Assembly: GCA_020627685.1 (NCBI GenBank)
Contig: JAHDGK010000012.1
Coordinates: 1-49,837 of the forward strand
Direction: 5' to 3'
From: Granulosicoccus sp.
GTDB taxonomy: Bacteria; Pseudomonadota; Gammaproteobacteria; Granulosicoccales; Granulosicoccaceae
DNA length: 49,837 bases
A program made the position numbers and the translations under genes. Below, piece after piece: positions 7,249-46,990 of the stretch; positions within the stretch are counted from its first letter, which is position 1, and each line of letters starts with the position of its first letter. The notes under the pieces are model-generated. The model had not been told where the DNA came from. It did not search any database and saw only the letters and a list, made by a program, of their open reading frames with translations.

Positions 7249-8769
7249 TTAGTACCAGGCATCGGGGAGTTCGCTTTTTCGACGAGAGACGAAATCATCC
7301 AGCGCCTCTTTTATGGCTATATCCATGGGGGGAGTCTCATAGTCGCGAAGCATTTGATTCCATTTGTCGAAAGCGCGTCTACGCATGTCATGTCCGCCTT
7401 TTTCCTCCCAGCTTTCTACGTTCTCACTATCGCTGAGTTCTGCATCATAAAACGCGTTCTGGTAATGGCGCATGGTGTGTGCTGATCCCAAAAAGTGTCC
7501 GCCCGGTTCGGTTTCAAGGTATGCGTCTTTCGCAAATTGGTCGTCGCTTACGTCCAAGCCGGCCATGACTTTTTGATAGCTACCGAGACGATCAGCATCC
7601 ATGACTAATTTTTCAAATCCGGTTGCCAGTCCACCTTCAAGCCAACCGGCTGCATGTAAGGTGTAGTTGGAGCCTGCCAAGACGGTTGAATGCATGGAGT
7701 CAGCGCTTTCATACGCGGCCTGTGCATCTTCAATTTTTGATGCTGTGAGTGAACCACCGCAGCGCAGCGGAAGCCCGGCTCGTCTGGCCAACTGTCCAAT
7801 GACATAATTTGAAACTACGGGTTCGGGCATTCCAAAAGTTGGCGCGCCAGATTTCAAACTCATGGATGATAAGAAGTTGCCCATGACGAATGGGGCTCCA
7901 GGCTTAATCAGTTGTACAAATGCGCAGCAGATCATGGACTCAGCCATGGCCTGGGCAACCGATGCCGCTGTGGAGACCGGACCCATGGCACCGGTCAAGA
8001 TAAACGGGGTGACCACCATGGCTTGGCCGCGTGAGGAATAAACCTGAATGGTTTCCGTTACCACCCGATCAATTAGCAGCGGGGAATTGGTATTCACATT
8101 TGCCATGATGACGACGTTATTGTCCATAACGGCTTGGCCGTGAACAATTTCAGCCATGTCTACGCTGTCTTGAGCACGGCTCTTTTCGGTGATGGCACCT
8201 AAGTGGGGTTTATCGCTGTTCACCATATGGCTGTAGAGCATATCCAGATGTCGTTTAGAAACCGGAACGTCGGTGGGTTCTGTAATGACAAATCCTCCGT
8301 GATGGAGGTACGGATGCATGTACGTTAATTTAACGAGTTTGTCGAAGTCGTTGATGGTTCCGTATCGGCGTCCGCCTTCCAGATCGCGCACGAAGGGTGC
8401 GCCATAGATCGGGGCAAAAACCTGATTACAACCTCCGATAACCACGGATCGCTCCGGGTTTCTAGCAAGTTGAGTGAATTGGGAGGGGGCTTTGGCACAT
8501 TGGGCTCGAACCCATTGCGCATCGGCGAAGACTTTGTCTCCAACGATTTTCACACCTGCCGCTTGCCAAATTTTTAGTGCCTCGGGATCGTCACGAAAAG
8601 CGAAACCCACGTTTTCGAACATCCAGTCGACTTGGCTTTCGATTGCGACAAGCTGTTCTTCATCCAAGGGATCGAAGAAAGGCAATTGACGCTTTATATA
8701 GGCTGGAGCTGCAGCTGCGGGTTTACGCGATGCAGTGCTCCTTCGGGTGCGGCGTGATTGGCGGGTCAT
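7249..8769 (-). CDS. Trimethylamine methyltransferase (MttB) superfamily protein, non-pyrrolysine type
   Basis: 506 residues, ATG at 8769. The body matches the MttB superfamily barrel, for example PIYGAPFVRDLEGGRRYGTI (about 120-139), TGAMGPVSTAASVAQAMAE and SNYTLHAAGWLEGGLATGFE. The frame is continuous through the region where archaeal MttB has its in-frame amber (pyrrolysine) codon, so this is a non-Pyl member like those that demethylate glycine betaine or related quaternary compounds via a corrinoid protein. The N-terminus is Arg/Ala/Ser-rich (TRRSTASRKPAAAAP) and probably disordered. No corrinoid protein or reactivase gene is visible in the window. It is divergent from the TAXI-TRAP-dddP operon across 254 bases, which suggests methylated osmolytes such as DMSP or betaines as substrates. 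That link is inference. Confidence 0.85.
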   Translation of the reverse strand: MTRQSRRTRRSTASRKPAAAAPAYIKRQLPFFDPLDEEQLVAIESQVDWMFENVGFAFRDDPEALKIWQAAGVKIVGDKVFADAQWVRAQCAKAPSQFTQLARNPERSVVIGGCNQVFAPIYGAPFVRDLEGGRRYGTINDFDKLVKLTYMHPYLHHGGFVITEPTDVPVSKRHLDMLYSHMVNSDKPHLGAITEKSRAQDSVDMAEIVHGQAVMDNNVVIMANVNTNSPLLIDRVVTETIQVYSSRGQAMVVTPFILTGAMGPVSTAASVAQAMAESMICCAFVQLIKPGAPFVMGNFLSSMSLKSGAPTFGMPEPVVSNYVIGQLARRAGLPLRCGGSLTASKIEDAQAAYESADSMHSTVLAGSNYTLHAAGWLEGGLATGFEKLVMDADRLGSYQKVMAGLDVSDDQFAKDAYLETEPGGHFLGSAHTMRHYQNAFYDAELSDSENVESWEEKGGHDMRRRAFDKWNQMLRDYETPPMDIAIKEALDDFVSRRKSELPDAWY

Positions 8770-9023: not shown

Positions 9024-10067
9024 ATGAAAGCCATGAAATCATTGGTGGCATTTGGCCTTATGGCTGCGTTGTCGTCCACCGTTCAGTCAGCTGAGAACCT
9101 GACCGCTGAAACAGCGTCGCCGGGTGGTTCTATTCACCTATCTATGTCGCACCTTGGAGAAGTCGCTGCTGAGTTTGGCATTGCCAATATTCAGGTGGCC
9201 GATGGGCAAACGCTGACCAACTCTATTCAAAACGTTGCTGAAGGCAAAACTGATATCGCAGGTACTCCTTATATCCTACCTTTCCTGATGTCCATGGGTC
9301 GTGGCCCGTACTCTAAGTTGGGGCCTGAAAAAGGTGCCGAGTTAGCGGGCAACTTACGAGCACTCTATCCGGTTACGCTTGGCATATTTGCGCTTTATGC
9401 ATATGACTCCAAAGGTCTTAACGGCTGGAGTGATTTAGAAGGGCGCAATATCTACAACGGACCGCCACGCGGTGCTGCTTTGTCTAATGCCCGTTCAATC
9501 ATTCAGCTAGCCACGGGTTTAAAAGATGGCGATGGATACAAAGGCGTCCAGGTGAACTGGGGTCAAGCTGTCAAGACCATTACCGATGGTTCTGCCGATG
9601 CTGTTGTACTGCCCATACTCTTCCCGGACAGCCGCATTACTCAAGCGTTGGCTTCGGGCAACATGACGGTTTGGTCTGTACCTGTTGATAAGTGGAACTC
9701 TGATCCGTTCCAGAAATATCTAAAAGCTCCGGGCTCAGCGCCGTTCACTCTTCCATTGGCTGATGCAAATCTGGGTGAAGGTGTCACGGTTGTATCTGAA
9801 GACGGAACATTCCGTGGCTTAGCGACCATCGGCGGCGATATCGTTAACAAGAACATGTCGTTTGACCTTGCCAAAGCATTGACTAAGGCTCACATCGATA
9901 CCTTGGATCGCTTGAAAGCAAAAGCACCTTTCGCCAAGCACGCCGGTTATGGTGTTGTTGATGTGGTTAAGTCAGGTATGTGTGGTCCTAACCCACTGAA
10001 ATACCATGAAGGTGCTGTAGCTGCATGGGAAGAAGCAGGCTACGTTATCGATGACTGCGCTAAGTAA
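9024..10067 (+). CDS. TAXI-family TRAP transporter solute-binding protein
   Basis: 347 residues, ATG at 9024 with ribosome-binding site AGAGGAG about eight bases upstream. A Sec signal peptide is visible (MKAMKSLVAFGLMAALSSTVQSA, cleavage near residue 23), so the mature protein is periplasmic. The remainder fits TAXI binding proteins: a GKTDIAGTPYILPFLMSMG segment, then GLNGWSDLEGRNIYNGPP and an SADAVVLPI stretch. It delivers substrate to the fused TRAP permease encoded directly downstream. A strong intrinsic terminator sits between the two genes. Position upstream of dddP suggests DMSP or another zwitterionic osmolyte as ligand; classical TAXI proteins bind dicarboxylates or glutamate, so the specificity is open. 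Confidence 0.88.
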   Translation: MKAMKSLVAFGLMAALSSTVQSAENLTAETASPGGSIHLSMSHLGEVAAEFGIANIQVADGQTLTNSIQNVAEGKTDIAGTPYILPFLMSMGRGPYSKLGPEKGAELAGNLRALYPVTLGIFALYAYDSKGLNGWSDLEGRNIYNGPPRGAALSNARSIIQLATGLKDGDGYKGVQVNWGQAVKTITDGSADAVVLPILFPDSRITQALASGNMTVWSVPVDKWNSDPFQKYLKAPGSAPFTLPLADANLGEGVTVVSEDGTFRGLATIGGDIVNKNMSFDLAKALTKAHIDTLDRLKAKAPFAKHAGYGVVDVVKSGMCGPNPLKYHEGAVAAWEEAGYVIDDCAK

Positions 10068-10095
10068 CTAGCGTTGTCTTTGCAGTAAGAAACGG

Positions 10096-10125
10096 CGACC
10101 AACACTTCGCGTGTTGGTCGTTTTT
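10096..10125 (+). terminator. Intrinsic terminator/attenuator between TAXI binding protein and TRAP permease
   Basis: A perfect 10-bp stem (CGACCAACAC, 10096-10105, with GTGTTGGTCG, 10111-10120) and a five-base loop is followed by TTTTT (10121-10125). Since dddP and the permease continue in the same direction, it probably gives partial termination, yielding more binding protein than permease. Confidence 0.85.
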
Positions 10126-10161
10126 CATTTCTACCCCGATTAATACCTAATGAGGCGTTGA

Positions 10162-12513
10162 ATGTCTAACGAAGCTCCGGCGAGGACGCAACGAACCGAT
10201 CTCGGCGAAAAATTCGTTTACTGGTTGGCTTTGGCCCTGGTCGTGGTGGGTATGTTTAACGCCATGCCCGGCATTCCGGGAATAGACAAGGCGTTCGACA
10301 ATTTTTTAGGTTTTAAGAACTTCACGATTCGTAAATACCCCTACGAATACTTTTATCCATTGGCGTTTGCGGTAATGATGGTCATTGTCGCCCTGAAGCA
10401 TTCGCTATGGAAAAGCTTATCCGACAGCTCGGCGTTGAAAAGGCGTTTGGGGCTATGTTTGGACATTGCTCTGGTTGTAGCAGCCGTCGCTATTTCCATG
10501 ACGTACATGGTCGAAATAGAGGCGGTTTGCCTGGTTGATCAAATAACGGGGGAGAGAGCGGAACTCATCGCTAGAAGCCTGGCTGCTGAAATTGAATTTG
10601 CTGAAACCTACGGGTTGCCGGTTCCCGATTCAGTTGATGACCCTCAATGTATTAATACAACCGGCGTATGGCTGACAGCCATTATTGGATTATCGGTTTG
10701 TATTTTCCTGGCGTACAACGTCAAAGTGTGGGGCTTACCCTTAGTTTTAGTCGCTATCGCCGTTGCTCTGTACACCGTCGCAACGGTTATGGTTTGGTAC
10801 TTCCACGGTGCAGAAGATGTCAACAAGTACTTAATGACAAAACTCGGAGGCGAACCGCGTTTACTCTCCGATGGTCGACCGCGACTACACGATGCCTTGG
10901 TTAATAATTCATCCGGCCTGCTAGGCCGGTTTATGGACATCATTCTCAACACCGTCTTTCCGTACATTGTATTGGGTGGTTTGTTCGGCACGTCAGCCGG
11001 TGGTCGATCGCTTATAAAACTGGCGTTTCTGTGGACGCGAAATTTACGAGGCGGGCCTGCGCATGCCGCGATCGTCTCTTCAGCGATGTTCGGGACTATC
11101 TCTGGCGGACCCGTCGTCAACGTTTTATCCACGGGTGTTTTAACCATACCCATGATGATCCGAAGAGGTTTCTCCAAGGTGTTTGCAGGAGGGATGGAAG
11201 CAGCCGCCTCATCAGGTGGCTCTATCATGCCGCCGGTTATGGGAGTCGCGGCGTTTGTTCTGGCAGCGCTTACGGCGGTGCCATACCGTGAAGTGATCAT
11301 TGCTGCTGCTATACCTGCAATTGCCTACTTTTTCTGTATGTTTTTGTCCGCTATTTTCCAGTCTAGAAAGCAGGGCATAGAAGCAATCGGAGAAGTCACC
11401 GAAGACATGAAGCTCACGCGATCTGACAAGTTAAACCTTGTGATGATCTTCGGTCCTATTTTGTTAATTCTGGTTTTACTCTTAACGCCCAAAGAAGCCA
11501 TTGGATGCGGGTTCATTGCGTCTCTGTTCGGTGTCTCAACCAGTATTCAGAACGGGAGTTGTCTTTCCACCGATTTGCCGTGGTTTTTTCAATTGGTACA
11601 AAACTCAGCAGGTGATGCCGGTAGTGCCGGTTGGTGGGCAGTAGTTCTCTTATGCGTTTTGCTGTTTCTCGATAAAGGTATGCGTAAAGAGCCAGGACGT
11701 TTACTTGATGCTCTATCAGGCTCAGGCGTTTTAGTGTCTACGTTGTATCTGATGTTTTTAGCGGTCTCTATCATCGACTTCTGTTTAAACTTTACTGGGT
11801 TGTCGGACTTCATCGCCTTAGACGTACTCGGTTGGTTACGATCCTTGGATTTAGGCGGTAGTGGATCAGGCGTCTTCCAGTTCTTAGCGTTACTCACCAC
11901 AATGGCGCTTGCTGTACTTCTGGGCATGGGGATGCCAGCGGTACCCGCGTATATCAACGTTGCATTGCTTATGGGGCCCGTATTGGCAGGCCTTGGTATT
12001 TCGATTTTCACAGCCCATATGTTTATTTTCTACTTTGCGGTAGCGTCTGCCATTACACCGCCTGTCGCTATTGCAGCCTTTACCGCAGCAACGATTACCA
12101 AAGCAGAACCTATGGCGACTGCATTTTCAGCTGTTCGATCCGGAATCGTTATGTTTGTTATTCCATTTGTATTTGCGATGTATCCGGAAATTCTACTTAT
12201 AGAGGCGGCTGTTCTTGATCCAAACTCTCTGCCGTCGGCGGCGCAGTATTTGCCGGGATACGATGGTCAGTTACACTTAATTCCGTTGTTATGGCTGCTG
12301 AGCAAACTGATATTCGCACTGTATCTTCTGGCTAGCGCGTTAGCGGGATATGACAGAAAGAATCTGACAGGCATTGAGATTGCTCTGCGGCTTTTACTCG
12401 CAGCGCTCATCATGTTTAAAGCCCCGGTGATTTATGTGCCCGCCATAGTTGTGGCTGGCGCACTCATGGCGTACCACGTTGTGAGCAACCGACAATCCCC
12501 ATCCATACAATAG
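10162..12513 (+). CDS. TRAP transporter permease, DctQ-DctM (4TM/12TM) fusion, TAXI type
   Basis: 783 residues, ATG at 10162 with GAGG six bases upstream. The small-subunit (DctQ-like) part covers about the first 215 residues and is fused to the large DctM-like channel part, as is usual for TAXI systems. Channel landmarks include GGLFGTSAGGRSLI, the SGGPVVNVLSTGVLTIP segment and AFVLAALTAVPY, then GMGMPAVPAYINVALLMGPV near the C-terminal half. A loop between early helices (about residues 118-168) is hydrophilic and carries C123 and C163, which could form a disulfide if periplasmic. It couples Na+ or H+ to import of the solute bound by the preceding protein. dddP starts 20 bases downstream. 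Confidence 0.92.
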   Translation: MSNEAPARTQRTDLGEKFVYWLALALVVVGMFNAMPGIPGIDKAFDNFLGFKNFTIRKYPYEYFYPLAFAVMMVIVALKHSLWKSLSDSSALKRRLGLCLDIALVVAAVAISMTYMVEIEAVCLVDQITGERAELIARSLAAEIEFAETYGLPVPDSVDDPQCINTTGVWLTAIIGLSVCIFLAYNVKVWGLPLVLVAIAVALYTVATVMVWYFHGAEDVNKYLMTKLGGEPRLLSDGRPRLHDALVNNSSGLLGRFMDIILNTVFPYIVLGGLFGTSAGGRSLIKLAFLWTRNLRGGPAHAAIVSSAMFGTISGGPVVNVLSTGVLTIPMMIRRGFSKVFAGGMEAAASSGGSIMPPVMGVAAFVLAALTAVPYREVIIAAAIPAIAYFFCMFLSAIFQSRKQGIEAIGEVTEDMKLTRSDKLNLVMIFGPILLILVLLLTPKEAIGCGFIASLFGVSTSIQNGSCLSTDLPWFFQLVQNSAGDAGSAGWWAVVLLCVLLFLDKGMRKEPGRLLDALSGSGVLVSTLYLMFLAVSIIDFCLNFTGLSDFIALDVLGWLRSLDLGGSGSGVFQFLALLTTMALAVLLGMGMPAVPAYINVALLMGPVLAGLGISIFTAHMFIFYFAVASAITPPVAIAAFTAATITKAEPMATAFSAVRSGIVMFVIPFVFAMYPEILLIEAAVLDPNSLPSAAQYLPGYDGQLHLIPLLWLLSKLIFALYLLASALAGYDRKNLTGIEIALRLLLAALIMFKAPVIYVPAIVVAGALMAYHVVSNRQSPSIQ

Positions 12514-12533
12514 GTGTACGTTGAGAGCACGTT

Positions 12534-13877
12534 ATGTCCATCAGTCGATATTCTGAACAACGCAAAATTGATCCATCCAGAGGGGCGCAATTAGCCGACG
12601 GAACTGCAAATGATCAGGACCGGATAGAAATCGGTCCCACACAACTTGCTTATCAGGAATGGTCAGAAGCAGGTCTTGTTCTTCCAGACCTTATTGCCAT
12701 GCGTGAGTTTCGCTGGAAGCGTCTTACTCAGCATATTGTCGATAGAGGCTACGGTGGGTTGTTGGTATTTGATCCGTTAAATATCCGCTATGCCACCGAT
12801 AGCACGAACATGCAATTGTGGAATACGCACAATCCGTTTAGAGCGGTGCTTTTGTGTGCTGACGGCTACATGGTCATTTGGGACTATAAAAATTCACCGT
12901 TTCTCTCTACGTTTAATCCTCTGGTAAAAGAGCAGCGATCCGGTGCGGATCTTTTCTACTTCGATCGCGGTGACAAGGTGGATGTTGCTGCTGATGTCTT
13001 TGCAAACGAAGTTCGTGTACTGATTGAAGAACATGGCGGTAACAACAAACAATTAGCCGTTGATAAAATCATGCTGCATGGTCTACGTGCGCTTGAAGCA
13101 CAAGGATTCACCGTCAAAGACGGCGAGGAAGTCACTGAGAAAAGCCGTTCTGTTAAGGGCGTTGACGAAATATTGGCCATGCGTTGTGCGGTGCATGCTT
13201 GCGAAACGGCTGTTGCTAAAATGGAAGACTACGCCCGCACCCAAATACCAAACGGCATGGTATCCGAGGACGATGTGTGGTCTGTGTTGCACGCAGAAAA
13301 TATTCGTCGTGGCGGTGAATGGATAGAGACGCGCTTGCTCGCGTCTGGCCCACGCACTAATCCCTGGTTTCAGGAGTGTGGTCCACGAATAATTCAGAAC
13401 AACGAGATTATCAGCTTCGATACCGATCTCGTCGGTAGCTACGGTATCTGTGTCGACATGAGCCGGAGTTGGTGGATTGGTGATGAAGCACCGCCTGCCG
13501 ATATGGTTTACGCCATGCAACATGCTCATGAGCATATTATGACCAATATGGAGATGCTAAAGCCTGGTGTGAACATTCAGGACTTGAGCCGCAATACGCA
13601 TCAGCTGGATCAGAAATTCCAGAAGTTGAAGTACGGTTGCCTGATGCACGGCGTCGGTTTATGTGATGAATGGCCGCTAGTTGCCTATCCGGACAAAATG
13701 GTTGAGGGCGCGTTTGACTACGAATTAGAACCGGGCATGGTGCTTTGCGTGGAAGCGTCAGTCGGTGAAGAGGGTGCTGATTTTTCTATTAAGTTGGAAG
13801 ACCAAGTGCTCATAACCGAAACCGGTTATGAAAACTTGAGTCAGTATCCTTTTGATGATCGCTTGATGGGGCGTTAA
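12534..13877 (+). CDS. dddP: DMSP lyase DddP (M24-fold)
   Basis: 447 residues, ATG at 12534 with GAGAG eight bases upstream. The protein has the creatinase/M24 fold and closely follows DddP as I remember it from Roseobacter-group bacteria, including the N-terminal segment RKIDPSRGAQLADGT and the stretches NIRYATDSTNMQLWNTHNPF and GLCDEWPLVAYPD. The six metal ligands known for DddP (Asp, Asp, Asp, His, Glu, Glu) are all present as D296, D298, D308, H372, E407 and E422, one residue offset from the Ruegeria enzyme numbering I recall. It cleaves dimethylsulfoniopropionate to acrylate, DMS and a proton in the cytoplasm. It lies directly behind the TAXI-TRAP genes, so substrate import and cleavage are probably co-expressed. 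An Xaa-Pro peptidase is much less likely. Confidence 0.93.
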   Translation: MSISRYSEQRKIDPSRGAQLADGTANDQDRIEIGPTQLAYQEWSEAGLVLPDLIAMREFRWKRLTQHIVDRGYGGLLVFDPLNIRYATDSTNMQLWNTHNPFRAVLLCADGYMVIWDYKNSPFLSTFNPLVKEQRSGADLFYFDRGDKVDVAADVFANEVRVLIEEHGGNNKQLAVDKIMLHGLRALEAQGFTVKDGEEVTEKSRSVKGVDEILAMRCAVHACETAVAKMEDYARTQIPNGMVSEDDVWSVLHAENIRRGGEWIETRLLASGPRTNPWFQECGPRIIQNNEIISFDTDLVGSYGICVDMSRSWWIGDEAPPADMVYAMQHAHEHIMTNMEMLKPGVNIQDLSRNTHQLDQKFQKLKYGCLMHGVGLCDEWPLVAYPDKMVEGAFDYELEPGMVLCVEASVGEEGADFSIKLEDQVLITETGYENLSQYPFDDRLMGR

Positions 13878-20005: not shown

Positions 20006-20800
20006 CTATTTGCCCTGGAATTCAGGCGATCGTTTCTCGTTAAACGCCATGACTCCCTCTCGACGGTCCTGGGTTGGAACCGTTCGATTGTAAGCTTCAA
20101 TCTCAAAGGCTAGTCCGTCAGACAAGCTCATTTGCATGCCTTTATGAATAGCCTGTTTTGCCTGCTTTACGGCAATAGGCGCATTGTTCGCAATTGATGC
20201 CGCCACATCGAGGGTACATTCAATTAGTTGATCGGGATGACACACCTCGTTAGCCAATCCCCATTGAAGGGCCTCTGATGCTGAGAATACCCGGCCTGAG
20301 AGTATGAGTTCCTTAGCGCGTTTTTCACCCACCGCTCGAGCCAAGGTTTGAGTTCCCCCGGCACCTGGAATAATGCCGATTCGAACTTCGGTTTGAGCAA
20401 ATTTTGCAGACTCAGATGCGTAAATGAAATCCATAGCGGCCGCCAATTCACATCCACCGCCAAAAGCTGCACCATTGATGGCACCTATGGTTGGAATGGG
20501 GCAGGCAACTACCGCGCGTGTCATACGTTCATACACCTTATGCTGCCTAAGCCACTGTTCATCTGACATGCCATTGCGTTCTTTTAAATCACCACCGGCA
20601 CAAAAGGCTTTTTTGCCTGCGCCAGTGAGCACGACGACGCGAATGTTCTCAGGGCTTGTACTCAGTGATTCAAAGACGTGGATTAAGTCCCACGCCATTT
20701 CAGTATTGAACGCATTGGAGACTTCGGGTCTGTTTAAAGTCACCAGGAGAATGTGCTCTGAAAGGGTCTCGAGCACTAATGTGTTTGTTGTTGGAAGCAT
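20006..20800 (-). CDS. Enoyl-CoA hydratase/isomerase (crotonase) family protein
   Basis: 264 residues, ATG at 20800. Crotonase fold with the oxyanion-hole motif FCAGGDL (66-72) and the second NGAAFGGGCELA (110-120). Both hydratase catalytic glutamates are present, E118 (GGCELA) and E138 (FAQTEVRIGIIPGAGG), so true syn-hydration of enoyl-CoA is likely and not just isomerase or decarboxylase activity. Candidate substrates include short or branched enoyl-CoA; acryloyl-CoA from DMSP breakdown is attractive given dddP in the same window but unproven. It starts 11 bases after argE on the same strand, an unusual operon pairing. Confidence 0.9.
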   Translation of the reverse strand: MLPTTNTLVLETLSEHILLVTLNRPEVSNAFNTEMAWDLIHVFESLSTSPENIRVVVLTGAGKKAFCAGGDLKERNGMSDEQWLRQHKVYERMTRAVVACPIPTIGAINGAAFGGGCELAAAMDFIYASESAKFAQTEVRIGIIPGAGGTQTLARAVGEKRAKELILSGRVFSASEALQWGLANEVCHPDQLIECTLDVAASIANNAPIAVKQAKQAIHKGMQMSLSDGLAFEIEAYNRTVPTQDRREGVMAFNEKRSPEFQGK

Positions 20801-20811
20801 AGTAGCCTGTA

Positions 20812-21969
20812 TTAGCGTGACAGCCTTTGAGCAGCTTGTTGCATAAAATCCAAGCCTTGCTGCAGTTCGCTGCGTTTAATGAATTCGTCGGGTTTGTGAG
20901 CGCGACTTATGCTGCCTGGACCGAACACAACCGTAGACATACCCACATCGCTGAAATAACCCGCATCGGTACCGAAAGAGACAACATCACGGCTGTTTAG
21001 TCCTGTAATACTGCTAACAAACTCGGCAGCCTTTGCAGCATGTTGATCATTTAGTGCTGGTACCGGTGCATCGGTGATGATGTTAATGGCCGAGTGTTCG
21101 TAAATATCCTTCATGGCTGGCAGGAGTTCTGTTTCGGCATAGTGTTGCAGCTCGTTGATGATGAGCTGACCATCTTCACCGGGCATGGGGCGAAACTCCC
21201 AATTAAAACTGCACCGCCCAGCCGTTGCGTTGGTGGCCATTCCACCTTCAATGATGCCGACATTAAATGTGCAATAGGGCGGGATAAACTCTGAGTCGGT
21301 ATAGGGTTGTTCAGCCAAGCGCTGTGCAATCTCGTAAATTTTGTTGATGAACTTTGAGGCAACTGCGATGGCGTTGACACCCAAGGTGGGATCACACGAA
21401 TGCACCTCATAGCCAATCACCTCTGTACGCATTTCATAACCGCCCTTATGAGCGGTGATGAGTTTCATATCAGTGGGTTCGCCAACGATAACAATTTCCG
21501 GGCGCATGCCTTGCGACTCGATAGAGTTCAATAGAAATGGCATCCCAAACCCGCCAATTTCTTCATCAAATGAGAAGGCAAGATGAATCGGTTTTTTTAA
21601 ATTGGCGTTTTTAAACACGGTTACCGATGCCAGCATGCAGGCAAGGAAACCTTTCATGTCAACCGATCCTCGACCAAAGAGCTTGTCGTCGATAGCGGTC
21701 AGGGTAAACGGAGGCGTTGACCAGTTTTGTCCTGCAACGGGTACGACATCTGTATGACCATTAAAAACTAACCCGCCATCGCAATGGGGGCCAATCGTTG
21801 CGAATAAATTGGCCTTCAGGCCGGATTCGTCATAGCTGAGAGTGGACTCAATGCCGTGTTGGGCCAGGTAGTCCTGGATATAGCTAACGATTGGCTCGTT
21901 TGGGCGCGCTGAGATACTTTCAAACCCAACGAGTTTGGTCAATACGTTGATACATTCATCTAGGTCCAT
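20812..21969 (-). CDS. argE: Acetylornithine deacetylase-like M20 amidohydrolase
   Basis: 385 residues, ATG at 21969. Dizinc M20 family motifs are all visible: FNGHTDVVPV with the first His-x-Asp, GRGSVDMKGF with the bridging Asp, FDEEIGGFG with the catalytic and metal Glu pair, FGTDAGYF, and the C-terminal His in SRAHKPDEF. Length and spacing match proteobacterial ArgE, which releases ornithine from N-acetylornithine. Because it is co-transcribed with a crotonase and not with arg genes, it may deacylate another N-acyl amino acid, so the symbol is homology-based. Confidence 0.8.
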   Translation of the reverse strand: MDLDECINVLTKLVGFESISARPNEPIVSYIQDYLAQHGIESTLSYDESGLKANLFATIGPHCDGGLVFNGHTDVVPVAGQNWSTPPFTLTAIDDKLFGRGSVDMKGFLACMLASVTVFKNANLKKPIHLAFSFDEEIGGFGMPFLLNSIESQGMRPEIVIVGEPTDMKLITAHKGGYEMRTEVIGYEVHSCDPTLGVNAIAVASKFINKIYEIAQRLAEQPYTDSEFIPPYCTFNVGIIEGGMATNATAGRCSFNWEFRPMPGEDGQLIINELQHYAETELLPAMKDIYEHSAINIITDAPVPALNDQHAAKAAEFVSSITGLNSRDVVSFGTDAGYFSDVGMSTVVFGPGSISRAHKPDEFIKRSELQQGLDFMQQAAQRLSR

Positions 21970-32814: not shown

Positions 32815-33345
32815 ATGGATAAAGACACGGGACAGCTTGCAGGAATACGAATTGCCTATCCCGCGTTTCTACTGTTCGCTGTTTTTTTAGCGGCGACGTT
32901 CACTGATCAAGTGAAGTGGTTCAATAATCTAGTCCTTTTCAAGCAACCCGGCTTGTGGGCATTAATCAGTGTTAGCGGAATGGTAGTCACCGCATTGATT
33001 GCTTGTATCCAGGTTTTTATAAAACCAAAAACAGCAGATGTTACTTGGCGATCAGATGTACAAGAACTCGGCTTCTGGGTTCGTGCTTGTGAATATCTGG
33101 TTTGGTTCATGGTGTATGTGTTTGCCGTGCCCTATCTGGGTTACCTACCATGCACGATCCTTTTCACAACACTGCTGACGTTAAGAGTTGGGCACCGCTC
33201 CATGCGTTGGTGTGTAAGAGCAATCCTTTTAGCCGTTGTCACCGTCGTTATTTTCAGAGCTTTTTTGCAGGTAAAGATTCCAGGTGGCCAAATATACGAA
33301 TGGCTACCGTCACCCTTGAGCAAGTTCTTGCTCATGTATTTATAG
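32815..33345 (+). CDS. Tripartite tricarboxylate transporter small membrane subunit (TctB family)
   Basis: 176 residues, ATG at 32815 (weak ribosome-binding site). Four to five hydrophobic helices are visible (IAYPAFLLFAVFLAATF near the N-terminus, LWALISVSGMVVTALIAC, FAVPYLGYLPCTILFTTLL). Pattern and size match TctB small subunits of TTT importers. The tctA gene follows 10 bases downstream. A periplasmic TctC-type binding protein is missing from the window, so the system must use a binding protein encoded elsewhere. Confidence 0.82.
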   Translation: MDKDTGQLAGIRIAYPAFLLFAVFLAATFTDQVKWFNNLVLFKQPGLWALISVSGMVVTALIACIQVFIKPKTADVTWRSDVQELGFWVRACEYLVWFMVYVFAVPYLGYLPCTILFTTLLTLRVGHRSMRWCVRAILLAVVTVVIFRAFLQVKIPGGQIYEWLPSPLSKFLLMYL

Positions 33346-33355
33346 GACGCTGACC

Positions 33356-37537: not shown

Positions 37538-39154
37538 TTAACGCACCACGTGTGAGGGCAGAGTAAAGCCGTCTTGCTCAAATTCTTCTTTATTCGTATA
37601 GGCGATGATTATTCCAGGCGGCTCTTTGTTGGCAGCCATCTGGTTTATTTGTTCTGCCGTTAATGTTGTTCTGTTGTGATGTTCCCGGCTCCACTCAAAA
37701 TGTAGAGAACGCATATAGTCTAGTTGATCGCTATGGTCCGAATCTGTGGCTAAATCAACGAGCTCATCCGGGTCTGTTTTAAGATCAAACAGCATTGGCC
37801 TCATCGTCTCTACATGGACATATTTCCATCGCCCGTCGAACACCATGACTAGCCGTGCATCTTTTTGATCTATTTCCAGGGCTTTTCGTGAGTCTCTTGT
37901 CGCGTAGTCGTACTCAGAAATACAATACTTTCTCCAAGATACTTCCTGGTTGGCAAGCAAAGGCTCAAGAGACATGCCTTCCATAATGTGTGGAACAGGG
38001 GTACCACCAAAGAAGTCTAAGAAAGTAGGTGCTAAATCGATTCCCTGTACCAGATTATTGTTCTCTGTCCCTCTAGTGCAATCAGCACTTTCGCGCGGAT
38101 CATAAACAATGAGTGGAACCTTGGCCGAACAATCATGGAATAGATCCTTCTCACCCATCCAGTGATCTCCCATGTTGTCTCCGTGGTCCGAGCAAAAAAC
38201 AATCATCGTGTCTTTCATGCGTCCACTGCTTTCCAGGTAGTCGAAAAGCCGACCCATTTGATCATCCAGTTCTTTGATCAGTCCCATATAAACCGGAGCC
38301 ACGATGTCTCTTATGTCATCACGCGAAAAGGTCTTACTGACCCGCATATCCATCCATGCTTGCATCAGTGGGTGATCTGAATTTTTTTCAACGTCCGATC
38401 TATTCGGGGGAGGTACATCAGCGGCGCTATACATATCGTTATAAGGCGCAGGAACCAGATACGGCCAGTGCGGCTTTATGTAGCTAAGATGACATAACCA
38501 AGGCTGATCTTTCTGGGCTTCAATGTACTCAATGCCGCGAGTGGTTAACCATGCACTTTCAGAATGTTCTTTGGGCACGCGTGCCGGGTAGGGAGCATTT
38601 TCCAACATCCAGCCGGAGACAAATTCACCATCAGGTGTTACGGCCGTATTAGCCCATTCTTCCCAAGGATTTTCACCGTCCATACCGTGTTGGCGAAGAT
38701 ACGCATCATAGTCGTCGGCACTTCGTCCAGGGTAGTCGGAATGGTTCGTGCCATCATCTCGGACTACGACCTCAAAACCGCACTGGCTCACTAATGCACC
38801 GATACTACTGTCGGGCTCGATTCCCAAGCGTTTCATGCCATCAAGGTCTGGCGTCATGTGCGTCTTGCCCACCAGTGAGCACTTCACGCCCAGTTCGCGA
38901 AGATGATCACCCAGTGTGATTTCACCCACGCGAAGCGGAAAACCATTCCAGGTGGAACCGTGACTTCTCACATAGCGGCCGGTGTAAAAACTCATGCGGC
39001 TTGGACCGCAAATGGGTGATTGCACGTATGTCCGATTGAAGCGTACGCCTCGTTCTGCCAATGAATCCAGGTGGGGTGTATGAATGTGTTGAGCACCGTT
39101 GCAACTCAGGTAATCCCAGCGCAGCTGGTCCGCCATAATCCACAACACATTCAT
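37538..39154 (-). CDS. Sulfatase / phosphonate monoester hydrolase family enzyme
   Basis: 538 residues, ATG at 39154. Alkaline-phosphatase superfamily: N-terminal metal site NVLWIMADQLRWD, formylglycine motif C49-G-P-S-R53 (C-x-P-S-R, cysteine type, needing a formylglycine-generating enzyme), and the downstream metal site FCSDHGDNMGDH followed by KDLFHDCSAKVPLI. No signal peptide is visible, so it is cytoplasmic, like choline-sulfatase and PMH relatives rather than secreted polysaccharide sulfatases. Small sulfate or phosphonate esters are the likely substrates. It heads an operon with the membrane cyclase and is divergent from the FMO-like gene. No maturase is visible here. Confidence 0.88.
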   Translation of the reverse strand: MNVLWIMADQLRWDYLSCNGAQHIHTPHLDSLAERGVRFNRTYVQSPICGPSRMSFYTGRYVRSHGSTWNGFPLRVGEITLGDHLRELGVKCSLVGKTHMTPDLDGMKRLGIEPDSSIGALVSQCGFEVVVRDDGTNHSDYPGRSADDYDAYLRQHGMDGENPWEEWANTAVTPDGEFVSGWMLENAPYPARVPKEHSESAWLTTRGIEYIEAQKDQPWLCHLSYIKPHWPYLVPAPYNDMYSAADVPPPNRSDVEKNSDHPLMQAWMDMRVSKTFSRDDIRDIVAPVYMGLIKELDDQMGRLFDYLESSGRMKDTMIVFCSDHGDNMGDHWMGEKDLFHDCSAKVPLIVYDPRESADCTRGTENNNLVQGIDLAPTFLDFFGGTPVPHIMEGMSLEPLLANQEVSWRKYCISEYDYATRDSRKALEIDQKDARLVMVFDGRWKYVHVETMRPMLFDLKTDPDELVDLATDSDHSDQLDYMRSLHFEWSREHHNRTTLTAEQINQMAANKEPPGIIIAYTNKEEFEQDGFTLPSHVVR

Positions 39155-40890: not shown

Positions 40891-42567
40891 ATGATATTCA
40901 AAAAGAAAAACGGGCAGGACCTACCTTCCCATATTACCGAAATGGCCGAAACGGTCAAAAATTCCAAAGACGGCGTCACCCGCCGCGAATTTTTAGCCCT
41001 AGCTAGTATTTTCGGCGCGAGCGCCACCACCGCTTACGGAATGCTTGGTTTGGCTACACCGTCAGTTGCCGAAGCTGCGCATCATTCAATGGGCGGCACC
41101 GTACGCTATCAAACAGAAGTACGTGCGCTAAAAGATCCTCGCACCTACGATTGGTCGCAGATCGCGAACTTTTCACGCGGCTGGCTTGAGTACCTGGTTG
41201 AATACAATAACGATGCAACCTTTACCGGCAAGCTTCTAGAAAGTTGGGATGTCAGTGACGATGCAAAAACGTACACGCTTAACGTGCGTAAAGGCGTCAA
41301 ATGGAACAACGGCGATGACTTCACTGCAGAAGACGTAGCGCGCAACATCACTGGATGGTGTGACAAGAGCGTTGAAGGCAACTCCATGGCTGGACGTTTC
41401 GCCACTCTAATAGATGCTGACTCTGGTCAAGCCATCGAAGGCGCCATTGTGGTCGTCGATAGCCACACGGTTCAGCTGAACTTGCCGGCTCCTGATATCT
41501 CAATAGTTGCTGGTATGGCTGATTACCCTGCAGCGATCGTTCATAAAGACTATGACCCTGAGAAAGCGTTGGAAATGCCTCTGGGTACAGGCCCTTACAA
41601 GCCAGAATCTCTAAAGGTCGGTGAAAAGGCCGTTCTGGTTCGTAACGAAGATCACACCTGGTGGAATGCCGGCAACGGTGCGTGGATGGATCGCGTTGAA
41701 TACATCGACTACGGAACTGAGCCAGCATCTCACTTCGCTGCCATGGAATCTGACGAAGTCGATTTCATCTACAGCGCCGAAGGTGCAGAGATAATCGAAC
41801 TGATGGGCACAGTAGACGGTTTCGATCGTCACGATGTTGTTACAGCTGCAACGGTTGTTGTTCGACCAAACCAGCAAGCTGAAGTTGACGGCAAAAAGAT
41901 CTACGCCGACGCACGCGTGCGTCGCGCATTTGCCATGGCCGTTGACCCAGCAGTTTGTTTGGAACTGGGTATCGGTGGACTGGGTGTTACCGCTGAAAAC
42001 CACCATGTTGGTCCTATGCATCCTGATTATGCAGAGCTTCCTGCGCAAAAGGTTGATCCAGCCGGTGCCAAAGCGCTGATGGAAGAAGCTGGTATGGGCG
42101 ACTACGAGCATGAGCTTATTTCAATCGATGCCGGCTATCGAAAAGATACGACCGATGCGGTAGCTGACATGCTGCGTAAAGCAGGTATCAACGTTAAGCG
42201 AACTGTTTTACCTGGATCAACGTTCTGGAACGATTGGGCTAAGTATCCATTCTCGTCAACTAACTGGAATCATCGCCCACTGGGTGTTCAGGTTCTGGGT
42301 CTTGCGTATCGTTCAGGAGAAGCTTGGAACGAGGCGGGATTTGCTAACGAAGAATTTGATGCAGCATTGAAAGAGGCTGTTGCACTTGCAGACGTTGATA
42401 AGCGTCGTGAGAAGGTCAAAATCTGTGAGCAAATCATGCAAGACGAAGGCGTTATCATCCAGCCTTACTGGCGTACATTAACCAACTTTGCCAAGGCAAA
42501 TCTGGGTGGCGCTGCTCATCACATCACGTTTGAGCATCGTCCGCAGGATCTGTACTGGAAAGGCTAA
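40891..42567 (+). CDS. ABC transporter substrate-binding protein, family 5, Tat-exported
   Basis: 558 residues, ATG at 40891 with GGAG six bases upstream. A twin-arginine signal is visible ([17 protein letters not shown]31-R32, then a hydrophobic stretch and AEA-A near residue 63). The mature part is an SBP_bac_5 protein: [57 protein letters not shown]. Family 5 proteins bind peptides, opines, nickel complexes or glycosides. Tat export implies folding before export, perhaps with a cofactor or metal. Permeases and a fused ATPase follow, separated by a terminator-like hairpin. Confidence 0.9.
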
Positions 42568-42589
42568 CTTAGCGTTGGTGTATTTAAGA

Positions 42590-42620
42590 AGGGCTGCTCC
42601 GTAAGGGGCAGTCCTTTTTT
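42590..42620 (+). terminator. Intrinsic terminator/attenuator after the family-5 binding protein
   Basis: An 11-base stem (42590-42600 with 42605-42615, including two G-U pairs) with loop GTAA is followed by T's to 42620. As with the TAXI gene, it sits between the binding-protein gene and its permeases, giving partial termination. Confidence 0.85.
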
Positions 42621-42652
42621 ATTTGAATGTTCGCAATTTCAAGGGTGACTTG

Positions 42653-43699
42653 ATGATTAGCTTTTTGATCAGACGTTCTGGAGTGATGGTGCTCACGGCG
42701 TTATGTTTAACGTTTATCGTGTTCTTCCTGACAAACCTGGAACCCAATCTTGAAAAACTGACGAAAAGCGAAGGGAACATGCGCATGACGGATGTGCAAG
42801 TGCAATCCTGGCTAGAAAAAAACGGTTACCGTCAGCCTTTGATAAAGCGCTACGGCGAGTGGTTAGGTGTCAGCCCCGGTTGGACAAACACCGATGATGA
42901 AGGCAAAACGACTGGTCGTTGTATTCGCCGCGCTGAGGATCCAGAAAACCCCGCTAAATATTGTGGCTTGCTGCAAGGGGAATGGGGCTTTTCATTAGTT
43001 TTTAAGAACGACATTTCCACGATCATCTCTGAGAAGCTTGCGTTAACCGGAAAGCTCATGATGTGGGTACTGATAGTCATGGTACCTGCCGCGTTAATCA
43101 TTGGTGTTATAGCGGGCATGCGAGAGGGGACCAAAACCGATAGAACGTTATCCGGTTTTTCTATTCTGTCCACCTCAACACCTGAGTATGTGTCAGGCGT
43201 CATCCTTATCATCATATTTTCAAGTAAGTTTGGCGGTCTACGCTGGTTCAAAGGGACCGCAGCCACCGCAATGGAAAACATCACATTTGAAAACTTCACA
43301 TTGCCGGTGGTGACGCTGGCTTTGTACGGCGTGGGGTACATCGCTCGAATGACCCGCGCCTCCATGGCCGAAGTCATGACAGAACAATATATTCGTACGG
43401 CCCGGTTAAAAGGTTTGAGCTTTCCTGCGGTTGTGCTCAAGCATGCGTTGAGAAATGCGCTTATTGCTCCGTTCACGGTCATCATGTTGCAAATACCGTG
43501 GCTGCTGACAGGCGTTGTTATTGTGGAAACGCTGTTTAATTACAAAGGCTTCGGTTGGACCCTCGTCGCTGCCGTAGGTAATAACGATATTGAGCTTCTT
43601 CTAGCCTGCTCGGTTGTGGCTGTGATGGTGGTGTTGGTGACACAGCTGATATCAGATATCGGCTATGTGTTTCTCAATCCACGTATTCGAGTTAACTAG
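42653..43699 (+). CDS. ABC transporter permease, DppB-type
   Basis: 348 residues from ATG at 42653 with AAGGGTGA upstream; an upstream alternative start (42623) would add ten residues and is not preferred. First helix RRSGVMVLTALCLTFIVFFL, then a long periplasmic loop (about 30-120), then five helices with the EAA-type loop around YIRTARLKGLSFPAVVLKHALRNAL. The loop is larger than in DppB and holds C90 and C104 (GRCIRRAEDP and KYCGLLQGEWG), which could form a disulfide. The stop TAG is part of the ribosome-binding site of the next permease gene. Confidence 0.9.
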   Translation: MISFLIRRSGVMVLTALCLTFIVFFLTNLEPNLEKLTKSEGNMRMTDVQVQSWLEKNGYRQPLIKRYGEWLGVSPGWTNTDDEGKTTGRCIRRAEDPENPAKYCGLLQGEWGFSLVFKNDISTIISEKLALTGKLMMWVLIVMVPAALIIGVIAGMREGTKTDRTLSGFSILSTSTPEYVSGVILIIIFSSKFGGLRWFKGTAATAMENITFENFTLPVVTLALYGVGYIARMTRASMAEVMTEQYIRTARLKGLSFPAVVLKHALRNALIAPFTVIMLQIPWLLTGVVIVETLFNYKGFGWTLVAAVGNNDIELLLACSVVAVMVVLVTQLISDIGYVFLNPRIRVN

Positions 43700-43708
43700 G
43701 AGCTGACC

Positions 43709-44863
43709 ATGGAAAGATTAACTGCTCTAGAAATTACGACTCGTGTACTGGCGCAATTTACGCCGGTGTGGATTGGCCTGGTCGTCATCCTCACGCTCTC
43801 GTTTATGTTTAGAAAACGATTGGGACTGTATGGCAAGTTGTTAGGTAGCCCCATCGGTACAGCTGGATTAGTTCTGGTGTTGTTTTGGGTTCTCACCGCG
43901 ATCTTTGCCGATCTCATCGCTACGATGGATCCGCTGACGCAAATATCGGGTATGAAAAATAAGAAGCCCGGTTGGCCTGTGTCCGGTATGGAAGGTCATT
44001 GGTATCTATTAGGCGGTGACAACCTAGCGCGAGATGTATTCAGTCGCATGGTTAAAGGTAGTCAGATAGTATTGGCGATTGCACCAGCGGCAACCATATT
44101 TGCCTTTATGGTGGGTGTCACACTTGGCTTACCATCCGGTTACTATGGCGGCAAGCTTGACACCAGCTTAAGCTTTTTAGCGAACCTGGTTCTAGCGTTC
44201 CCGGTCATCTTGTTATTCTTTTTACTTGTCACACCTGAAATCCGATCCACCGGTGTGCCGCTCTGGTTAGCAGGCGTTCTGTTTCTGTTTCCTATTATTT
44301 TCTTTTGTATGTTGTTCTATTCGCGATTTCGCGAACAACCCAATAAGTTGGCTATTTATTTAAGTGTAACGTTAGTCTTGGGTTTTTGGGCTTACTCGGG
44401 CCTGGCATTCAACAAAGATCCGCTAGGTGTGTTCTACATGGACCCTAACTTGTTGAACATATTCGTGGCGGTTGTCTTTGTAAATTCCCCGACCGTTTTT
44501 CGTATCGTTCGAGGACTAACTATTGATATTAAAACTAGAGACTATGTCGCTGCGGCACAAACCCGTGGAGAGATGCCTTGGTACATCATGCTATGGGAAG
44601 TATTGCCAAATGCACGAGGACCGCTCATTGTAGATTTCTGTTTGCGTATTGGCTACACCACCATCTTGTTGGGTACGCTGGGCTTTTTCGGCTTAGGCGT
44701 CACGCCGGAAAGTCCGGATTGGGGAATGACTATCAATGAAGGACGAAAGCTACTTGCGGCTTATCCACACCCTGCTTTCCCACCCACCATCGCTCTCATG
44801 TCACTAGTACTGGGACTTAACTTGCTGGCCGATGGGCTTCGCGAAGAATCGTTAAAAGATTAA
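43709..44863 (+). CDS. ABC transporter permease, DppC-type, with extra membrane segments
   Basis: 384 residues, ATG at 43709 with TAGGAG upstream. Core DppC features include GTDN-like LLGGDNLARDVFSRMVKGSQ, the EAA region around DYVAAAQTRGEMPWYIMLWEVLPNA, and the C-terminal FFGLGVTPESPDWG. At 384 residues it is clearly longer than usual DppC (about 300): there is an additional N-terminal helix (PVWIGLVVILTLSFMF) and a roughly 75-residue insertion (about 165-245) with two further helices (LWLAGVLFLFPIIFFCMLFY and YLSVTLVLGFWAYSGL). The partner is the preceding DppB-type permease. Confidence 0.9.
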   Translation: MERLTALEITTRVLAQFTPVWIGLVVILTLSFMFRKRLGLYGKLLGSPIGTAGLVLVLFWVLTAIFADLIATMDPLTQISGMKNKKPGWPVSGMEGHWYLLGGDNLARDVFSRMVKGSQIVLAIAPAATIFAFMVGVTLGLPSGYYGGKLDTSLSFLANLVLAFPVILLFFLLVTPEIRSTGVPLWLAGVLFLFPIIFFCMLFYSRFREQPNKLAIYLSVTLVLGFWAYSGLAFNKDPLGVFYMDPNLLNIFVAVVFVNSPTVFRIVRGLTIDIKTRDYVAAAQTRGEMPWYIMLWEVLPNARGPLIVDFCLRIGYTTILLGTLGFFGLGVTPESPDWGMTINEGRKLLAAYPHPAFPPTIALMSLVLGLNLLADGLREESLKD

Positions 44864-44902
44864 CGCGACATTCTGCCCAAGCAACCACTAAGGATACACA
44901 TC

Positions 44903-46990
44903 ATGAGCGTTGAACCCATACTAGAAATAGACAACCTGAATATCTCTTTTTTCGTCCGCGCAGGTGAGATACCAGCAGTGATGGATTTCTCCTGCAAAGT
45001 GATGCCCGGAGAAACCATGGGGCTGGTCGGGGAGTCCGGCTGCGGGAAATCCACGGTTGCTCTTGGCATCATGCGGGACATGGGGAATCGCGGAAAGATC
45101 GTTGGAGGTTCGATTAAATTTCGCGGGCGCGATATGGGTGAGATGTCCGAAGCCGAGTTACGAGACATTCGCGGCTCAAAAATCGCCATGATTTACCAAG
45201 AACCAATGGCTTCGTTGAACCCTGCAATGAAAATTGGTAAGCAGCTCATGGAAGTCTTGATCATCCATGAAAAGGTTTCTAAAGATGAGGCTTATAAACG
45301 TTCTGTAGAGATGCTGGAGTCGGTTAAGTTGCCAGACCCTGCTCGCGTGATGGGGGCTTATCCGCATCAAATTTCCGGTGGTCAGCAGCAGCGTATCGTC
45401 ATTGCCATGGCACTGTTGTCCAAACCCGATCTATTGTTGCTCGATGAGCCTACAACGGCATTGGATGTCACAGTGGAGGCTGGAATAGTCCAGCTGATAA
45501 AAGAGCTCGCAAGAGAGACCGGTACGTCCATGTTGTTTATCTCGCATAACCTGGGATTGATTCTGGAAACCTGCGACCGTATTACCGTCATGTACTCAGG
45601 TGAGGCTGTTGAGACCGGCGAAGTACACGAAGTGTTCGACAACATGCGTCATCCATACACACAAGGGTTGTTCAACTCCATTCCACTGCCGGGTGCCGAT
45701 AAAAACAGTCGCCCTTTGGTGGCTATACCTGGCCAGCTACCGTTGCCTATGGAGCGTCCGCATGGCTGTAATTTTGGTCCTCGTTGTGAACACTACATAG
45801 AGAGCGAATGTAATGCAGGCCCAATCAGCATGCTAGAAGTTGACGGGCAAGATGCGCATCGCTCTCGTTGTGTTCGAATTGATCAAATAGATTGGGCAGC
45901 TGAGCCTGAACGCCCCCTGGTTAGCGACCCTGCTACGCCAGGAGACGTTGTACTCGACGTCCGTGATTTGAAAAAATACTATGATGTTGCGGCCAATCAG
46001 ATGTTTGGTGGCGGAGAGACAAGAACCGTAAAAGCGAACGAGTCAATCACTCTGCAAGCGAGAGAATCCGAAACTGTCGCTATTGTGGGTGAGTCGGGTT
46101 GCGGTAAATCAACACTGGCAAAGGTACTGCTGGGTTTAGAAACAGCGACCGACGGTCACGTTATGCTGGGTTCAGTATCCATAGGCGATACTGAGGTGGG
46201 TGATAGAAGTACCAAAACAGTAGCGTCAGTTCAAATGGTATTCCAAAACCCGTTCGATACGCTCAACCCCAGTCATTCAGTGGGTTCGCAAATCATGCGA
46301 ACACTGGAAAAATTTAACATCGGTACAGATCAAGACGATCGCCGCGAGCGAATGTTAAAACTTCTCGATTTAGTCAAACTGCCCAGAGCCTTTGCTGAAC
46401 GCATGCCCAGACAATTATCTGGAGGTCAGAAGCAAAGAATCGGCGTAGCCCGGGCTTTTGCAGGACAACCTAAGCTTGTTGTTGCTGATGAGCCGGTTTC
46501 GGCGCTCGATGTATCAGTACAGGCCGCGGTAACTGAGTTGCTAATGGAGATACAACGCGAAGCCAAGACAACGATGTTGTTTATCAGTCACGATCTCTCG
46601 GTAGTTCGTTACATAGCTGATCGCGTTGTCGTCATGTACTTGGGGCACATCGTAGAGCAGGGCACCACCGATGATATTTTTGCCCCGCCATACCATCCGT
46701 ATACAGAAGCTTTGCTGTCGGCCATACCGATTGCAGATACCAGCGTGGTCAAGAAGCAAATTGTCTTAGAAGGCGATATCCCCTCGGCGTTGAATCCACC
46801 AACAGGTTGCCCGTTCCAAACGCGTTGTGGGCATAAATCCGAGGTTGACAATGGATTGTGTGAAAGCCAGATGCCTCCGGTTAAGGAGATGCCAAATGGA
46901 CATGCCATCAAGTGCCATCTGTCTGATGAACAACTGGCTAAGATGGAGCCGGTTATTAGTTTTTCATCTAAAGAAGAGGCGGTGTCTTAG
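44903..46990 (+). CDS. Fused dual ATP-binding protein of the peptide/opine ABC importer (DppD-DppF fusion)
   Basis: 695 residues, ATG at 44903 with AAGGA nine bases upstream. Two complete ABC cassettes. Cassette 1: Walker A GESGCGKST (43-51), signature ISGGQQQRIVIAMAL, Walker B LLLLDEPTTALD. Cassette 2: Walker A GESGCGKST (about 396-404), signature LSGGQKQRIGVARAF, Walker B LVVADEPVSALD. Each ends with an oligopeptide-transporter C-terminal motif (GCNFGPRC, GCPFQTRC) whose cysteines are typical of this family. It powers the two permeases encoded upstream. Its TAG stop overlaps the hipA stop on the other strand by three bases within a 4-base overlap. Confidence 0.93.
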   Translation: MSVEPILEIDNLNISFFVRAGEIPAVMDFSCKVMPGETMGLVGESGCGKSTVALGIMRDMGNRGKIVGGSIKFRGRDMGEMSEAELRDIRGSKIAMIYQEPMASLNPAMKIGKQLMEVLIIHEKVSKDEAYKRSVEMLESVKLPDPARVMGAYPHQISGGQQQRIVIAMALLSKPDLLLLDEPTTALDVTVEAGIVQLIKELARETGTSMLFISHNLGLILETCDRITVMYSGEAVETGEVHEVFDNMRHPYTQGLFNSIPLPGADKNSRPLVAIPGQLPLPMERPHGCNFGPRCEHYIESECNAGPISMLEVDGQDAHRSRCVRIDQIDWAAEPERPLVSDPATPGDVVLDVRDLKKYYDVAANQMFGGGETRTVKANESITLQARESETVAIVGESGCGKSTLAKVLLGLETATDGHVMLGSVSIGDTEVGDRSTKTVASVQMVFQNPFDTLNPSHSVGSQIMRTLEKFNIGTDQDDRRERMLKLLDLVKLPRAFAERMPRQLSGGQKQRIGVARAFAGQPKLVVADEPVSALDVSVQAAVTELLMEIQREAKTTMLFISHDLSVVRYIADRVVVMYLGHIVEQGTTDDIFAPPYHPYTEALLSAIPIADTSVVKKQIVLEGDIPSALNPPTGCPFQTRCGHKSEVDNGLCESQMPPVKEMPNGHAIKCHLSDEQLAKMEPVISFSSKEEAVS

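Follow-up and report, generated by a model that had tools for sequence, protein, structure and literature searches.

The import of a zwitterionic osmolyte by TRAP transporters is exemplified by the ectoine systems TeaABC and UehABC, which lie beside catabolic genes and use a DctP-type binding protein, not a TAXI protein. The job proposed here for a TAXI-TRAP, the import of DMSP, would be done by DmpXWV and by the BCCT (DddT-type) importers, which belong to unrelated families (ABC and BCCT). These are also the two families to which the available text of PMC13310141 assigns the known DMSP transporters. In addition, with the exception of dddD and dddX, lyase genes do not usually cluster with potential DMSP transporters, according to the accessible part of PMC10030565. 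For TAXI systems, the ligands named in the available portion of PMC12344293 are glutamate or glutamine, 2-oxoglutarate/2-hydroxyglutarate, and phthalate. The TAXI-TRAP VcGluP/VcGluQM of Vibrio cholerae (8s4j) combines, like the locus studied here, a TAXI protein (profile score, 65 bits) with a TRAP permease; loss of Y45 and Q93 of VcGluP costs the most affinity, and there is no Arg or Lys in its site (available text of PMC11574862). Furthermore, dmdA has been described in kelp-associated Granulosicoccus (available text of PMC9238374).

The window, that is, the whole stretch of 49,837 nucleotides analysed here, comes from a Granulosicoccus genome of 4.93 Mb in 117 contigs (Table 1). A sequence-only reading of this stretch had placed dddP 20 bases behind a fused TRAP permease, on one strand with the gene of a TAXI binding protein, and our analysis confirmed these three ORFs. 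All of them are on the plus strand, and the TAXI and permease genes are separated by 94 bases. Downstream of dddP, 2-oxoacid oxidoreductase genes follow in convergent orientation after a gap of 13 bases. Among the loci fetched, the order TAXI-permease-dddP was found in the window only.

Table 1. Features of the window, with their positions, strands and supporting matches
Feature	Position	Strand	Remarks
MttB-family methyltransferase	7249..8769	-	PF06253 697 bits; divergent from TAXI gene, 254-base gap
TAXI-type TRAP binding protein, 347 aa	9024..10067	+	PF16868 match; signal-peptide-like start by eye
Hairpin with T-rich tail, terminator-like (possible attenuator)	10094..10122	+	Between TAXI and permease genes; z -2.29 for the 94-nt gap
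Fused TRAP permease, 783 aa	10162..12513	+	PF06808 168.2 bits; TIGR02123 318.7 of 320.65
dddP, DMSP lyase of M24 fold, 447 aa	12534..13877	+	NF043017 895.7 bits; PDB 4rzy alignment
Enoyl-CoA hydratase-family gene	20006..20800	-	65-70% to genes adjoining dddP in L155 and L157 and near dddP in L120
ArgE-type M20 deacetylase	20812..21969	-	62-66% to genes in dddP/TAXI regions L120, L130, L131
TctB/TctA-like tripartite tricarboxylate transporter pair (by eye)	32815-34843		
S1-type sulfatase, orthologue of the usual permease-following gene	37538..39154	-	76% to L120, L131, L132, L133; 77% in genome search
Opp/Dpp-type ABC transporter (SBP_bac_5, two permeases, double ATPase)	40891..46990	+	83-90% to G041 (L168) homologue
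HipA-family protein	46987-48243	-	PF07804, PF13657; next after the ABC transporter, opposite strand

The score of the dddP product against NF043017 is well above the curated cut-off of 600 bits, and its residues 5-446 align with PDB entries 4rzy, 4rzz, 4s00, and 4s01 (deposited as 'Peptidase M24'). We take these four entries to be Ruegeria DddP, with R. lacuscaerulensis as the organism of 4rzy. The six residues that the sequence-only reading had described as an intact metal site (D296, D298, D308, H372, E407, and E422) were all found, and D378 stands where entry 4s01 carries Asn. The roles of the six as metal ligands follow that earlier reading, and D378 is taken to be the active-site Asp. Compared with the DddP of 4rzy, the alignment is nearly full length and the same six ligands and D378 are shared; unlike it, the window's DddP is encoded behind a TRAP permease, in a gammaproteobacterium, and its activity is predicted from sequence. 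By its sequence, the protein is a genuine DMSP lyase.

The TAXI protein scored 52.5 bits with PF16868 (cut-off 27) and 40.9 bits with TIGR02122 (cut-off 84.35). Meanwhile, the permease is far above the PF06808 cut-off of 23.8 and just under that of TIGR02123. The Pfam cut-offs were passed and the NCBIfam cut-offs were missed, and thus we regard the pair as a diverged TAXI-TRAP; the TIGR02122 cut-off is a naming threshold, and we read the shortfall as divergence, not as a definition of the family. Close copies of the TAXI protein (23 full length and one partial, 78-89% identity) occur among the other 47 genomes of the family. In addition, of 12 plasmid records with homologues at 24-52% identity, 11 are annotated as TAXI and the twelfth carries no annotation. 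The window's genome also holds a second member of the subfamily (contig C117), with a sulfatase about 5 kb off, and two better PF16868 matches on contigs without a sulfatase match (C91 and C97).

In a profile alignment through 1us4, which is weak at these positions, I37 and P82 of the window's TAXI protein stand in place of Y45 and Q93 of VcGluP, and P82 is kept in 70 of 71 sequences of the subfamily. On these pocket residues, glutamate was rejected as the ligand. Further differences from VcGluP are the sulfatase partner described below and the conserved arginines R149, R157, and R204, which are kept in 66, 69, and 67 of the 71 sequences. W179 and Y172 are conserved as well. As judged from the alignment, the pocket argues against glutamate and is compatible with an anionic ligand, without naming one. 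At three loci (L134, L135, and L136), a TAXI subclade of 80-81% identity lacks an adjoining permease match. It is accompanied by genes for a DesA/LigM-like O-demethylase (under both cut-offs) and for an MBL-fold-like protein, and a sulfotransferase-cluster gene lies beside the permease-less TAXI in L134 and L136.

The permease gene of close relatives is usually followed immediately by a gene for an S1-type sulfatase (PF00884). When whole loci were searched by tblastn, 15 of 19 close relatives had a sulfatase no more than 1 kb from the TAXI/permease module, as did 11 of 15 more distant loci of the family (6/9 at 52-63% and 5/6 at about 30%), 35 of the 45 loci sampled from a second family (30/40 + 5/5), and 3 of 7 plasmid loci. 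The second family, which we take to be the Rhodobacteraceae, belongs to the same phylum as the window and to another class. Its sample consisted of 40 regions with 42 of 63 TAXI matches, counted as one module per region, with several regions from some genomes, and of five added loci, three of which are also among the 63 matches. Of 37 second-family loci whose flanks were both visible, 9 had no sulfatase within 1 kb. The same was true of two loci of the window's family (L116 and L119), of 4 of the 7 plasmid loci, and of all five loci with a binding protein but no permease match, three of them with both flanks visible. It should be noted that contigs often end near the module, so that the linkage counts are lower bounds. 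They were made by tblastn; ORF calling lost some TAXI genes in GC-rich loci. One locus without TAXI (L151) was excluded from every count. Some of the sulfatase and TAXI queries were taken from counted loci; in a control on dddP loci with the same queries, a sulfatase stood no more than 1 kb from dddP at 0 of 80 and 1 of 33 loci.

The association was also seen at the level of genomes. Among 48 genomes of the window's family (Granulosicoccaceae, the window's own included), 20 hold the close transporter with permease, 25 hold close dddP, and 15 hold both. Partial genes were counted as present (dddP in G001 and G031, sulfatase in G028), and the partial TAXI of G007 and permease-less TAXI copies were left out of the permease-bearing set. 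A close sulfatase is present in 18 of the 20 genomes with the transporter versus 1 of the 28 without it (Fisher's test, P = 5e-10, incomplete genomes included and kinship ignored). For close dddP, the numbers are 15 of 20 versus 10 of 28 (Fisher's test, P = 0.008, again with incomplete genomes included and kinship ignored). The presence of the sulfatase tracks the transporter, and dddP tracks it loosely. More generally, the analysis links a TAXI-TRAP subfamily to cytoplasmic sulfatases in two families that belong to different classes. In a limited literature search, we found no report of a TAXI-TRAP linked to sulfatases or to dddP.

The window itself holds the orthologous sulfatase 25 kb from the transporter, on the same contig and the other strand. 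The usual active-site motif of such sulfatases is C-x-P-S-R, and CGPSR stands at this place in the window's protein (by eye). The PF00884 domain starts at residue 2 in the sulfatases of the window and L120 and at residue 5 in that of L130. Thus, there is no room for a signal peptide in the three tested, and a sulfate ester would have to enter the cell first. The L120 partner sulfatase scored 207.7 bits with the choline sulfatase model TIGR03417, under its cut-off of 433.45, and choline sulfate was therefore not adopted as the ligand, although it may be one. A second sulfatase type lies near TAXI at L130:10431-11990, with CMPNR at the C-x-P-S-R place (by eye). Several other sulfur-related genes were found at these loci. 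For instance, alkyl-sulfatase-type MBL genes (PF14863) lie near TAXI in L142 and L217, and members of their sequence clusters do so in L140, L141, and L147 of the window's family and in L209, L211, and L216 of the second. In addition, SulP carriers occur at two plasmid loci and a TauE-type exporter at five loci (L117, L120, L125, L130, and L131). Locus L209 (G626) holds two convergent TAXI-permease modules within 20 kb, with a sulfatase near each, and also ALDH-, GST-, and SDR-like genes and an MBL alkyl-sulfatase-cluster gene (names mostly by eye).

The linkage of dddP to the transporter recurs in a looser way. Of the 15 family genomes that hold both, 4 have dddP no further than 10 kb from close TAXI, against 0.06 expected. 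Besides the window, dddP is 0.2 kb directly upstream of TAXI in G039 (L120), 3 kb downstream of the transporter and behind a sulfatase in G032 (L130), and 9 kb upstream of the transporter in G040 (L131). All four genomes belong to one genus, and the position of dddP differs in each. A quick tree of the permeases has a supported group that holds the other three but not the window, and it forces at least two changes of the linkage label. Chance adjacency is unlikely given the excess over expectation, even though those three share one permease clade. The linkage of dddP and the transporter is not due to chance, and its form is not conserved.

Outside the family, no close TAXI-TRAP was found at the 80 nearest dddP loci, which are the best 80 of at least 591 and include several on short contigs; window proteins and HMMs were both used, and the only exception with the latter is a distant TAXI-TRAP in L069. 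At this locus (L069/L174), which we count with the loose recurrence within the family, the HMMs built here place it about 1.3 kb from dddP on the other strand with one gene between, and the L069 permease is 32% identical to that of the window. In the second family, dddP is present in 216 of 394 sampled genomes, more often in those with TAXI (42 of 54) than in those without (174 of 340; Fisher's test, P = 1.6e-4, kinship ignored), and at none of the 45 TAXI loci. A shared algal lifestyle would explain such co-occurrence without linkage. Thus, when the recurrence of the linkage was checked, as the sequence-only reading had suggested, it held loosely within one family and failed at the 80 nearest dddP loci and at the second-family TAXI loci.

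To our mind, the simplest reading of a binding-protein-dependent importer adjoining a cytoplasmic sulfatase is uptake followed by desulfation, and we lean towards a sulfatase-partnered TAXI-TRAP subfamily that imports sulfate esters, with dddP as a lineage-specific neighbour. A small organic sulfate ester would be captured in the periplasm by the TAXI-TRAP and taken up, and a cytoplasmic S1 (formylglycine-type) sulfatase would then remove its sulfate inside the cell. In the window, dddP would occupy the usual place of the sulfatase behind the permease, with the orthologous sulfatase 25 kb off, and DMSP for DddP would probably enter by other carriers. The position of dddP beside the transporter may then reflect a shared island of algal-osmolyte and organosulfur genes, possibly with shared expression. 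However, several observations do not fit sulfate-ester import easily. R149, R157, and R204 are absent from the clade at 30% identity, which nevertheless adjoins sulfatases. None of the five loci with the binding protein only has a sulfatase within 1 kb, and two of them carry a sulfotransferase-cluster gene instead; the sulfatase is likewise missing near the second-family, family, and plasmid modules counted above. Furthermore, the window's own sulfatase is not adjacent to the transporter, dddP is nearer to it than chance allows in four genomes, and second-family genomes with TAXI have dddP more often. Another reading, which we consider unlikely but worth keeping in mind, is that an organic (e.g. 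aromatic) acid is what the transporter carries, and that the sulfatase acts separately from import, releasing or trimming related compounds. The Azoarcus TAXI system carries phthalate (available text of PMC12344293), five close TAXI loci have an intradiol dioxygenase gene nearby, together with DctP and DctM genes, protocatechuate dioxygenase genes occur in a Paracoccus locus, and the DesA/LigM-like O-demethylase (under both cut-offs) stands beside the loci with the binding protein only. However, such aromatic genes are found in fewer loci than the sulfatase, and the tested sulfatases have no room for a signal peptide, so that a sulfated substrate must enter the cell.

The sequence-only reading had seen in the three genes a single DMSP uptake-and-cleavage operon, with the TAXI-TRAP importing DMSP and feeding DddP. 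Its linkage proved real and recurs loosely in one family, while its ligand was weakened by the usual sulfatase partner and by members of known importer classes in the genome, and we now consider this reading quite improbable. The 20-base gap and the common strand would suit co-transcription, the excess of linked genomes (4 of 15) and the two or more label changes in the tree argue for more than coincidence, dddP and TAXI co-occur in the second family, and the conserved W179 and Y172 could hold a sulfonium. In addition, ectoine, another zwitterion, is carried by TRAPs. However, four genomes (G018, G028, G042, and G005, the last with only a 61% dddP homologue) have the transporter and sulfatase without close dddP, and 10 of 28 genomes have dddP without the transporter, incomplete genomes being included in both cases. 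Moreover, the placement of dddP varies among the four linked genomes, and it is absent from the second-family TAXI loci. The window's genome also encodes three BCCT open frames and five OpuAC proteins over the cut-off, so that DMSP entry need not depend on the TAXI-TRAP if their substrates follow their class. In G041 (L168), the genes that come directly after dddP, on its strand, are those of an Opp-type ABC transporter. A related version, in which an organosulfur TAXI-TRAP subfamily has been joined to dddP here and imports DMSP alone or besides sulfate esters, would make it the first TRAP importer of DMSP, and we give it an equally slim chance. Finally, the adjacency may have no functional meaning and result from a rearrangement or an assembly join. 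The exact gene order occurs in one genome only, and the sulfatase appears displaced by 25 kb within the same contig; however, dddP is also no further than 10 kb from this transporter in three more genomes of the family, and we think such an accident improbable too.

Other genes near dddP also recur in the family. In 9 of the 25 family genomes with close dddP (the window, L156, L158, L159, L161, L166, L169, L175, and L177), MttB-family genes are found no more than about 9 kb from it, mostly in divergent orientation, and the window's genome has only eight MttB-family genes in all. In L156, a DAO-GcvT protein of 805 aa is encoded between the MttB-family gene and dddP. Meanwhile, the family also has a second group of DddP homologues, with 50-61% identity (L180, L181, and L182), and an ArgE-type gene is next door at three loci of this group.

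In a sulfatase-linked TAXI-TRAP subfamily, one would have a carrier for small sulfate esters of algal origin, which could be tested through one binding protein. Furthermore, it would warn against naming transporters by a neighbouring dddP.
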